This document shows, in pieces, positions 39,507 through 53,498 of a stretch of DNA of 64,000 nt. The translations under genes were made by a program, and so were the position numbers. Source of the stretch: Micromonospora sp. Llam0 (lineage in GTDB: Bacteria > Actinomycetota > Actinomycetes > Mycobacteriales > Micromonosporaceae); NCBI RefSeq assembly GCF_003751085.1, contig NZ_RJJY01000001.1, forward strand, positions 3,844,001 through 3,908,000, read 5' to 3'. Below the pieces are notes generated by a model. That model was given only the letters and a program-made list of their open reading frames with translations, was not told the DNA's origin and did no database searches. The first letter of the stretch is position 1. Every line of letters begins with the position of its first letter.

Positions 39507-39551
39507 CTGAACTGGGGTGGGACGGACGAGTCGACCTGTACGCCGGATTCT
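39507..39551. repeat. attL: direct repeat corresponding to the rnpB 3' end
   Basis: 45 bp with 43 identical to 53454-53498; the uninterrupted 30-bp core is 39522-39551 (starts ACGGACGAGTCGACCTG, ends GCCGGATTCT). It lies 48 bases from the integrase stop. The core is the 3' end of rnpB (P4 3' strand to P1), so it is the displaced original chromosomal end of the gene. Confidence 0.9.
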
Positions 39552-39599
39552 CGCACCCGTACCAGCGCTGAGCTGCACGAACACCCCCACGAAGGCCCC

Positions 39600-40871
39600 T
39601 CAGGGCGTCTGCAGGGCGTCCGGGTCATCGGAGCCGTCCCCGCCGCCGTCCCCGTCCCCGCCGTCGTCGCCCTGCCCGGCGTCGTCACCGAACAGTGCGT
39701 CGATCGCCCGCCGGGTGCGCTCCTCGCCGGCCGGCATCAGATGCGTGTACACCCGCAGCGTGAACCCCGGGTCAGCGTGACCGAGGTACGTCGCCAGCGT
39801 CTTGACGCTCTCCCCCGCGTCGAGCAGAACCGAGGCGTAGAAGTGCCGTAGCGCGTGCATCCCCGTCGCCCTGGTCGGCACGATGCCCGCCGCCTCGACC
39901 GCCGGCTGCCAGTTCTTGCCATCGAACGTCGCCCGGTTCAGCGCGTTGCCTCGCGTCGTGGTGAACACCAGCGGCACCGTCACCGGGTCGCCCTTGAACG
40001 GGTCTTCCCACGGCAAGGTGATCGTGACCGGCTTGAAGACGGCCAGGTGCTCCCGCAGCACCCGGACAGCCGAGGACGACAGCGGCACCCGACGATCCCG
40101 ATCGTTCTTCGGAAGTCCGAACACCAGCCGGGACCGGACCCGCTTGACCTGGCGTACGACATGCACCCAGCCGGCATCCAGGTCGAGATCATCGACGCCG
40201 ATGCCGAAGATCTCGCCCTGCCGCAACCCGCACCCGGCACCGAGGTTGACCATCGGCCGGTAGCGCGGTGCGAGACCGGACCGGATTGCCGAAACCTGGT
40301 CGGCGGTCCACGGAACCACCCGCCGCTCAGCGGGCCGAGGTGCCTTGACCGAGCGCGCCGAGCACGGATTCTTGGCGATCCGCTCGTCATCCACCGCCGC
40401 GCCGAGGATGGTACGCAGGTGCGCGAAGACGACCGACCTGGTCGTGACCGCAATCTTGCCGACCAGGCTGGCATCCCAGGCCCGCACGTGCCCCGGCATG
40501 ATCGACGCCAACGACCGGTGCCCGAAGTACGGCAGGATGTGCTTGCGCACCCGGATCTCAGTGCTCTCCCGCGTCGACTCGTCAAACGACCGCGTCCGCA
40601 ACCACTCCTCGGCGTACTCCCGGAACGTGATCCGACCGGCGGACGGGTCGACGTACGCCCCGCGCAGCTTGTCTGACTCGGTCGAGACCAGGAACGCCTC
40701 AGCTTCGCGCTTCGCCCGGTCGGGAAACGACTTCTTGCGCTCCCGCCCGTCCGGGCCGACGTAGCGGACGCGGTACCTCAGCCCTTTGCCGAACAGTTTC
40801 GACTTGACCCGCTCGGTACGGCCGCCGGGATGCTTGATCGTCATGTGCCAGCGATCTTCGATGTGCGCCAC
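39600..40871 (-). CDS. int: Tyrosine recombinase (integrase) of the AICE
   Basis: 423 residues from GTG at 40871; the open frame extends upstream but the previous gene stops 2 bases before this start. Catalytic residues of the family are visible: Arg in GAGCGLRQGEI (R in the RxxE), HALRHFYAS with His-x-x-Arg, and the Tyr in GFTLRVYTHLMPA. The N-terminal arm-binding domain spans about residues 1-100, with the SAM-like core at 100-200 (FREYAEEWLRTRSFDEST, HILPYFGHRSLASI). It would recombine attP with the rnpB site. CAGGGCGTC repeats begin inside its last codons. The Asp/Gly-rich tail after TRRAIDALFGDD is unusual. Confidence 0.95.
   Translation of the reverse strand: MAHIEDRWHMTIKHPGGRTERVKSKLFGKGLRYRVRYVGPDGRERKKSFPDRAKREAEAFLVSTESDKLRGAYVDPSAGRITFREYAEEWLRTRSFDESTRESTEIRVRKHILPYFGHRSLASIMPGHVRAWDASLVGKIAVTTRSVVFAHLRTILGAAVDDERIAKNPCSARSVKAPRPAERRVVPWTADQVSAIRSGLAPRYRPMVNLGAGCGLRQGEIFGIGVDDLDLDAGWVHVVRQVKRVRSRLVFGLPKNDRDRRVPLSSSAVRVLREHLAVFKPVTITLPWEDPFKGDPVTVPLVFTTTRGNALNRATFDGKNWQPAVEAAGIVPTRATGMHALRHFYASVLLDAGESVKTLATYLGHADPGFTLRVYTHLMPAGEERTRRAIDALFGDDAGQGDDGGDGDGGGDGSDDPDALQTP
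39601..39620. repeat. Arm-type repeats, integrase end
   Basis: CAGGGCGTC at 39601-39609 and 39612-39620 (11-bp period), overlapping the integrase 3' end. The same 9-mer occurs four times at 53339-53377 near attR, in the same orientation, with 11-, 8- and 11-base steps. Positions on both sides of the core in the circular form suit arm-type integrase or excisionase binding. Confidence 0.6.
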
Positions 40872-40873
40872 GG

Positions 40874-41077
40874 CTACGCCGCCGCCTGCGAGCGGAACCA
40901 CTCGCGTACGTCTGCCGGGTCGTACCGCAGATGCCGGCCGATCCGGGCAGCCGGCGGACCGCACTTGTGCTTACGCCACCGGTACAAGGTCTCCACCGGC
41001 ACCCGCAGGAACTCCGAGACGTCCTCAACCGACCACAGTTCCACGTGCTTCGCCACCCTGTGCCCCTCCCCCATCAC
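40874..41077 (-). CDS. xis: Excisionase (MerR/AlpA-type HTH)
   Basis: 67 residues if started at GTG 41077 (GTGA overlap with the rep stop), or 60 residues from GTG at 41056, which has GGAGGGG upstream. The core VELWSVEDVSEFLRVPVETLYRWRKHKCGPPAARIGRHLRYDPADVREWF is a classic HTH_17 excisionase/helix-turn-helix protein as found next to pSAM2-type integrases. It probably directs excision by binding repeats near attP, and ends two bases before int starts. Confidence 0.9.
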   Translation of the reverse strand: MMGEGHRVAKHVELWSVEDVSEFLRVPVETLYRWRKHKCGPPAARIGRHLRYDPADVREWFRSQAAA

Positions 41078-52771: not shown

Positions 52772-53125
52772 TCACCACAACTCGTCAATCTCGGCGACCC
52801 TTGCTCTAAACCGACGAGCGTCCCGCGCCGGCAGCACGTGAGCCGCAGCTTCAAGGATCTGACGAACCTCTCGCGGGTCCGGGCAACACTCCATGACGCC
52901 ACAGCCGTACTGCGGATCCCACAGCCGGTGCCACGGGTCCTGGACAAAGTCTGCCCACGCCCGAAGCGCCCGTGCGACGGCGCCCTCCGTGAAGCGGGAG
53001 TGTTCCAGGTACGCGATGGCCTGAAGTCCTCGGAACGAGAGGCCGGCTACGTCAGACGTGTGGCTACCGAGGGGTCGGGAACGAAGCTTGGAAGCTCGCA
53101 CCTGCGTCGGGCGTCTACGCGGCAT
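52772..53125 (-). CDS. Small conserved protein near attR
   Basis: 117 residues from the ATG at 53125 (AAGGGA just upstream). SFRGLQAIAYLEHSRFTEGAVARALRAWADFVQDPWHRLWDPQYGCGVMECCPDPREVRQILEAAAHVLPARDARRFRARVAEIDELW; Cys-rich and helical, no known domain. Seen as a conserved hypothetical in actinomycete genomes. The alternative upstream extension is Arg/Pro-rich and doubtful. Last gene before attR. Confidence 0.6.
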   Translation of the reverse strand: MPRRRPTQVRASKLRSRPLGSHTSDVAGLSFRGLQAIAYLEHSRFTEGAVARALRAWADFVQDPWHRLWDPQYGCGVMECCPDPREVRQILEAAAHVLPARDARRFRARVAEIDELW

Positions 53126-53338
53126 GGTCCCTTGGGATGATCTGCATACCTCGACCATCCCACGAGCATGCGGCGGTACGGAAGCCGGCGGGGTTGGCCG
53201 CCGTCGTGGTCGGGGCTTCCGGCTGCCGCGCCAGTCCACAACCCGGACTGGCTTGCCACTGACACCTATCGCGCCGGGTCCGTACCACGCGCGGGTACGT
53301 CCCCGGCCGCCGTCGGCACCGCCCGGACCGTCCAAGAT

Positions 53339-53377
53339 CAGGGCGTCCCCAGGGCGTCAGGGCGTCTCCAGGGCGTC
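53339..53377. repeat. Arm-type repeats, attR end
   Basis: CAGGGCGTC at 53339-53347, 53350-53358, 53358-53366 and 53369-53377. The same 9-mer is at 39601-39620 by the integrase. Located 77 to 115 bases inside the attR repeat. Confidence 0.6.
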
Positions 53378-53453
53378 AGATGACGACCAAAGTTGACCAT
53401 GAACGACCATCGACCACGGAGAGTCCGCGCAGCTCAGCGCCTTGATCAACGCG

Positions 53454-53498
53454 CTGATCTGGGGTGGAACGGACGAGTCGACCTGTACGCCGGATTCT
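53454..53498. repeat. attR: direct repeat within the rnpB 3' end
   Basis: 45 bp, 43 identical to attL; the 30-bp perfect core is 53469-53498. It forms the 3' terminus of the functional rnpB (53466-53894). The mismatches are at 53458 and 53468. Confidence 0.9.

Follow-up and report, generated by a model that had tools for sequence, protein, structure and literature searches.

Locus and attachment-site repeats

A stretch of 64,000 nucleotides from Micromonospora sp. Llam0 (contig NZ_RJJY01000001.1, positions 3,844,001 to 3,908,000), hereafter called the window, was analysed for an integrated element at 39507-53498, which abuts rnpB, the gene for the RNA of ribonuclease P (RNase P). Judged from sequence, this is very probably an element of the actinomycete integrative and conjugative element (AICE) type, which sits in the 3' end of rnpB and supplies a replacement for the piece that it displaced; its relatives appear to do likewise.

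The element is bounded by a 45-nt direct repeat with 43 identical positions, both copies on the minus strand: a proximal copy at the 3' end of rnpB (53454..53498) and a distal one (39507..39551), which represents the displaced rnpB 3' end. Both mismatches fall within the first 15 nt, just outside the RNase P RNA, and the last 30 nt are perfect. The gene itself (53470..53887, minus strand) is a class A RNase P RNA, matching Rfam model RF00010 at full length (model 1-367) with 288.1 bits from 53887 down to 53470. The initial annotation had described the 45-bp repeats with their 30-bp perfect core, the right copy closing a canonical RNase P RNA and the left one displaced, and all of this was reproduced. 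A whole-genome search found a single rnpB, which rules out a second copy of the gene in this genome, and found the rnpB end only twice. The left repeat is thus absent elsewhere in the genome; its independent occurrence was what the initial annotation had named as speaking against its reading. The repeats are not due to chance, since a reversed-pattern control for the 26-nt core gave no match on either strand in all 354 rows. A tRNA as integration target was also ruled out: no tRNA was found in the 64-kb window, and the attachment site (attB) is in rnpB.

The displaced copy runs on into the left flank, and the same flank directly follows rnpB in three genomes of the same genus (G004, G005 and G006; identity 87%, 87% and 76%). 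Each of these has one copy of the repeat (43/45, 43/45 and 44/45 matches), and the single-copy empty site at rnpB that the initial annotation had asked for in related genomes was thus found. In G004 the rnpB-side match (97.7% over 707 bp) overlaps the left-flank match on the repeat. At the first mismatch, the left copy (GTCCCACC) has the native downstream sequence of these three genomes and the right copy (GTTCCACC) has the element end seen in G002, so that the left copy can be read as the host's displaced end, and the outer part of the right copy as the element's own. An intact rnpB at one end, a displaced fragment at the other and an uninterrupted site in relatives are the features of a gene-restoring island, and the last ~25 nt of the window rnpB were presumably at least partly supplied by the element upon integration.

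Integration and transfer genes

The gene adjoining the distal copy, int (39600..40871, minus strand), encodes a tyrosine integrase of 423 aa (Pfam PF00589, 6.5e-19; PF14659) and ends 48 bp from the repeat. Its start is most plausibly the GTG at 40871, not 40964, because four of five translated relatives have a stop in the upstream stretch. On the same strand lie xis (40874..41077), for an excisionase-like HTH_17 protein of 67 aa (PF12728, 1.9e-12); rep (41074..42840), for a RepSA-type replication initiator of 588 aa (PF20199, 2.7e-96); a gene for a DUF2637 protein (42837..43625; PF10935, 2.6e-6), which is Spd-like by position; and tra (43942..45702), for an FtsK/SpoIIIE translocase of 586 aa (PF01580, 9.6e-9, above the gathering score). 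With a tyrosine integrase adjoining the attachment site, a RepSA-type Rep (PF20199) and an FtsK/SpoIIIE Tra (PF01580), the element has the Int-Rep-Tra set by which AICEs are defined in the accessible text of PMC3218068. It falls outside the tRNA-targeting subgroup, as its attB is in rnpB.

An integrase clade associated with rnpB

A scan of species genomes yielded 35 loci with related integrases. A displaced rnpB end was present downstream of int in 20 of the 30 loci with a tblastn E-value of at most 1e-30 (L003-L032; L033-L037 fell out at this threshold), and one further locus (L017) has the end farther out (L166). Among Micromonosporaceae, an integrase at E ≤ 1e-90, relatives with other targets included, was detected in 88 of 354 genomes and 12 of 44 genera. 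Fifty-one genomes chosen for an integrase match were counted by hand; 39 of them have an integrase at least 70% identical to that of the window, and in 33 of these 39, two same-strand rnpB cores flank the integrase on one contig. The integrase relatives, whose comparison the initial annotation had proposed, are thus linked to rnpB ends. The other six have cores split over contigs (two genomes), int at a contig end (one) or no cores (three), and in none of the remaining 12 genomes (integrase 48-60% identical) is the integrase flanked by cores. The link is clear in eight genus codes (g1, g3, g4, g8, g9, g14, g24 and g34), and a ninth, g11 (L168), has it with four mismatches.

When nonredundant integrases were grouped by identity, a displaced core was found within 4.5 kb for 40 of 46 at ≥65%, 4 of 11 at 60-65%, 1 of 19 at 50-60% and 0 of 19 below. 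The six misses at ≥65% are three integrases with a switched target (L159, L160, L205), one at a contig end (L011), one whose core is farther out, in L166 (L116), and one whose core is present and overrun by the reading-frame extension (L133). On a tree of 84 of the 95 nonredundant integrases (those ≥38% identical; matches under ~300 aa were excluded), with the labels of these six kept as scored, the rnpB label needs 8 changes compared to 28.1 in shuffles, and none of 500 shuffles was as low. The tree was built by a quick procedure and has long branches and 33 open forks, which counts against leaning on it heavily. These comparisons place the window integrase in a Micromonosporaceae clade of tyrosine integrases that appears mostly to use rnpB.

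Outside this clade, plasmid and phage collections contained integrase relatives only below 60% identity, and the viral_contigs collection contained two, at 27-36%. One relative, 48% identical, is encoded with AICE genes on an 18.5-kb circular Streptomyces plasmid (L128, NZ_CP107792.1), which is perhaps an excised AICE with another target; neither on this nor on a second plasmid was an rnpB end found within 6 mismatches of a 28-nt query. At L126 (G137:C22) an integrase 41-42% identical lies beside rnpB in opposite orientation, and 13.7 kb away there is a second rnpB end; this may be an rnpB element in a different arrangement. Second rnpB ends were also seen 5.7, 0.9 and 5.3 kb from rnpB at L121, L125 and L127 (G071, G110 and G139), with no match to the window integrase in between; these may be either decayed elements or the work of other integrases.

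Likely position of the crossover

The two copies were compared across 27 complete elements, namely that of the window and 9 plus 17 further loci, which were chosen for having two known cores. In 25 of the 27, blastn matches rnpB at full length; L118 is matched from nt 46 on, and L171 is truncated where the locus starts. Over 26 columns, from TCCGGC to GTCCGT, the proximal and displaced copies agree in 27 of 27 elements, with 26 of 27 in one column. In the window this identity segment, TCCGGCGTACAGGTCGACTCGTCCGT, is located at 53469..53494 (minus strand), 25 nt of it inside the RNA. Just upstream of TCCGGC the agreement is 21, 22, 8, 24 and 22, and then 7 or 8 of 27. It weighs against this result that 24 of the 26 columns lie within the search pattern, so that the agreement arises partly by construction; two features do not depend on it, namely the sharp 5' edge, which lies inside the pattern, and the agreement in two columns beyond the pattern's 3' end. 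The crossover most likely takes place within the identity segment.

The initial annotation had counted the 3' strand of P4 (AGAATCCGGC) as part of the repeat. This holds in the window, where AGAA is shared; across the 27 elements, agreement in all of them begins only at TCCGGC. AGAA is fully shared by both copies in 6 of 27 elements, the window included, and its G in 8 of 27. Since AGAA is rarely and TCCGGC onward always shared, the crossover would be 3' of AGAA in at least most elements: the host would keep AGAA, and the element would supply the rest of rnpB to its 3' end. The shared segment is the RNA from TCCGGC to the 3' end, including the 3' strand of P1. When the best-pairing candidate is taken as the P1 5' strand and G-U pairs are counted, all 27 elements show P1 paired at 10 of 10 positions, whichever of the two copies, proximal or displaced, provides the 3' strand. 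This takes away some of the support for an exchange, as equal pairing gives no sign of which copy came from where; the pairing in all copies fits a pairing constraint.

Two rnpB ends could also result from homologous recombination or segmental duplication, without action of the integrase, and the genome G003 demonstrates that rnpB segments can duplicate by other routes. It has a second rnpB 2.35 Mb from the first (L045/L110, G003:C9:1359414-1359832; 273.7 bits), which is altered in the conserved 3' region, runs into the window's left flank (95% over 307 bp) and looks like a duplicated, degenerating copy. For the window this origin is highly improbable: in relative after relative the integrase of one clade adjoins the distal copy in the same orientation, and the agreement between copies drops from 27/27 to 8/27 within three columns of the 5' edge. 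Integrase-mediated insertion would instead swap the host rnpB 3' end for the equivalent end carried by the element.

Arm-type repeats and a palindrome past the rebuilt end

Short repeats of the form GACGCCCTG (rnpB sense) flank the core in the window. Four of them (53339..53377, minus strand) start 93, 104, 112 and 123 nt past the core, and two (39601..39620, minus strand), which fall within the final codons of int, precede the displaced core by 60 and 71 nt. Most elements show this layout of GACG[GC]CC[ACT] too: counted from the core, the distances on the rnpB side are 92-94, 103-105, 112-113 and 123-124 nt, and the int-side repeats lie 60 and 71 nt ahead of the displaced core. In L117 and L239 the repeats on the rnpB side are shifted. 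Both sides of the core carry the motif in 24 of the 27 elements, that of the window among them. We infer from position and repetition that these are arm-type repeats, to which Int is predicted to bind, and the elements of the clade are, by this shared pattern, a family with a recurring layout of the element's own attachment site (attP).

Just past the rebuilt rnpB 3' end there is an inverted repeat (53430..53461, minus strand) with its centre near GATC, and this centre is common to 26 of 32 sequences. Because the insertion moves the native downstream sequence away, this hairpin may be a terminator of rnpB transcription supplied by the element. Only slightly less than even odds can be given to the alternative that it is a protein-binding site of the integration machinery. 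Its location between the core and the arm repeats in attP suggests such a role, as does the outer stem, which keeps its dyad symmetry (pairs 10-15 in 26 sequences, 156 cells, of which 148 are Watson-Crick, 2 G-U and 6 mismatched). The inner stem, in contrast, contains G-U pairs (in 4 of 26 sequences at two positions and in 3 of 26 at a third), U-rich sequence often follows the palindrome, and at several sites lacking arm repeats a separate hairpin comes after rnpB, which would be the case if the gene required one; these points favour a terminator. Among these other hairpins, those of L084, L090 and L104 fold at -32 to -34 kcal/mol.

The core was found in 26 of 27 loci checked for arms and palindrome. 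One arm motif or more was seen in eight of these 26, including five single-core sites of genus code g24 (L240, L241, L246-L248), which, with palindrome and arms, look like element remnants. In the 18 loci without arm motif, the element-type palindrome is complete only at a decayed element end in G002 (L108); degenerate traces of it occur in L243-L245.

Tandem array and mobility of the element

In one genome (G011), rnpB is followed by five units of ~16 kb in tandem (L173-L177, G011:C1:3883203-3963356), with cores at the nearly equally spaced positions 3883203, 3899271, 3915211, 3931282, 3947287 and 3963356. At the inner junctions, a single core connects the int-side end with the rnpB-side end, as would be expected for attP in a circular form. 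The units differ from one another: Int matches are full-length in units 2, 3 and 5, whereas those of Int and Rep in units 1 and 4 are short or split, and for unit 2 no Tra was among the matches listed.

The element of the window is predicted to be mobile. Int would bind at two kinds of site, the short core at the end of rnpB and the GACG[GC]CC repeats of the two attP arms, Xis (40874-41077) would drive excision, Rep would replicate the circular form, and the FtsK-type Tra would move it between cells. It is also conceivable, if rather unlikely, that integration at rnpB is a past event and that the element is now immobile, fixed by decay invisible in the sequence or by selection, because rnpB would be broken if the element were lost and the gene not precisely repaired. 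Relatives that are short or decayed (in G002, G170 and G196) and element ends without a second core are in line with fixation. The same is true of an IS4-family insertion sequence in the accessory region of the window element (49237..50872, minus strand; 26-bp inverted repeats, transposase at 49244-50758), which is flanked by a 10-bp target duplication, CCGCCGACAC, at 49227-49236 and 50873-50882. This insertion lies outside int, xis, rep and tra, which are open and near full length compared to close relatives, and the element has six arm repeats and both its attachment sites, all of which argues for an element that can still move. The statement in the initial annotation that the core genes (int, xis, rep, spd, tra, korSA-like) look intact is right as far as open reading frames are concerned; the IS4-family insertion in the element had gone unmentioned.

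Several further observations weigh against a mobile AICE family using rnpB. The Tra match to PF01580 is modest and far below the NCBIfam TraB cut-off, and Rep is far below the NCBIfam RepSA equivalog cut-off. Both Rep and Tra of the window were matched in only 16 of the 27 complete elements, and 4 of 27 have no Tra match, so that the elements differ in gene load. Three of the 27 lack the arm motif at one end or both (L123 and L171 have none, L178 has one), and the five single-core g24 genomes have an element end at rnpB with the second core absent. Two genomes of the same genus, G001 and G003, have unrelated sequence after rnpB and no displaced end, and a third, G002, carries a decayed, rearranged relative of the window element. 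Finally, the viral_contigs collection contained no exact match to the core, and excision, circle and transfer are deduced from sequence.

Sister integrases and change of target

Nested in the rnpB clade are three Micromonospora integrases (L159, L160, L205), 74-75% identical to that of the window, which are followed by the 3' end of a GNAT acetyltransferase gene. This gene end resembles the rnpB core by eye, and the same arm repeat is present; the far attachment-site copy was found neither within 20 kb nor nearby on the same contig. More distant relatives end at metH, with a 25-bp repeat 13.2 kb apart, or at a gene for a family-11 rhamnogalacturonan lyase, with a 33-bp repeat 14.2 kb apart. 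These sister integrases resemble that of the window in sequence (~50-75% identity), in targeting a gene at its 3' end and, where metH or the lyase gene is the target, in having direct repeats; they differ in their protein-coding targets and, in the GNAT case, in that no far repeat was found. All being gene 3' ends, the targets point to a family habit of using the 3' end of a gene, with rnpB as one successful target. The choice seems to go with the integrase clade: in that of the window the target is mostly rnpB, in its relatives a protein-coding gene, used at its 3' end. With a switch from rnpB to such a gene among integrases that share 74-75% identity with that of the window, change of integrase specificity becomes testable.

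Relation to known elements

Element type and integration logic are already known; what may be new is the rnpB target, which was not found in the literature searched. Within the accessible text of PMC3218068, the vast majority of AICEs with tyrosine integrases are located in tRNA 3' ends, except for the pSLS subfamily, and pACPL, for example, has a proline tRNA as target and an att identity segment of 43 nt (PMC3218068, PMC3364876). As described there, pSAM2, pMR2 and pACPL share with the window element the Int-Xis-Rep-Tra modules, a RepSA-type Rep, an FtsK Tra, a size of 10-20 kb, an att segment of similar length and the 3' end of an RNA gene as target; the window element differs from them in having rnpB instead of a tRNA gene. 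The genomic islands at tRNA and tmRNA genes that Islander (PMC4383910) and the TIGER resource (PMC12424338) describe likewise split a structural RNA gene, restore it and leave a displaced fragment to mark the far end. Islander examines only tRNA and tmRNA genes, and the TIGER resource distinguishes the classes tRNA/tmRNA, CDS and intergenic (PMC12424338), so that rnpB islands would not stand out there as a separate category.

No report of rnpB as an attachment site was among the full-text literature matches listed, in a search whose coverage leaves out most subscription journals. The passages that mention rnpB or RNase P in PMC2516327, PMC8776855, PMC4524478, PMC2824730, PMC10763512, PMC10383233, PMC4383910, PMC12884075, PMC4701971, PMC3937233, PMC5462765 and PMC2705793 give no rnpB attachment site either. 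In the accessible parts of the surveys, structural-RNA targets of integrases are tRNA and tmRNA; a clade that uses the gene for an essential ribozyme extends this list by one target, which has a defined attB. Its 26-nt core is present with at most 2 mismatches in 316 of 354 Micromonosporaceae genomes and is thus a possible vector landing site in this antibiotic-producing family.

More tentatively, and with somewhat less confidence than doubt, we suggest that rnpB might be a standing integration hotspot of the Micromonosporaceae. In many strains the terminal ~25 nt, and perhaps the terminator, would then be a property of the element, exchanged repeatedly while P1 stays paired. Failed restoration on excision would destroy RNase P, which would tie element and host together with no toxin involved, and the state of the element could tune RNase P RNA 3' maturation.

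Rearranged relatives and accessory genes

G002 contains, at a distance of 843 kb from rnpB (L109, G002:C1 2062000-2080000), the remnant of an integrase and after it an attP-like junction, and its rnpB itself keeps an element end; this is perhaps a rearranged old array.

Between tra and the IS4-family insertion, the window element encodes a 168-aa protein without Pfam match (45941..46447, minus strand), which by tblastn is 78-93% identical over 123-160 aa in 11 of the 26 other complete elements. It is followed on the plus strand by a KorSA-like regulator of the GntR family (46456..47346; PF00392, 7.7e-21) and a HAD-like hydrolase (47313..48029; PF13419, 7.5e-17, with a coding pattern of third-position GC content), and on the minus strand by an HTH protein with a marginal DUF5919 match (48111..48869; PF19319, 5e-5, 23.6 bits against a cut-off of 23.5). 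A defence-gene scan of five accessory proteins gave nothing convincing. To the right of the IS4-family insertion, a reading frame at 50873-52495 has low third-position GC and a sub-threshold DUF5677 match, and is probably recent cargo.

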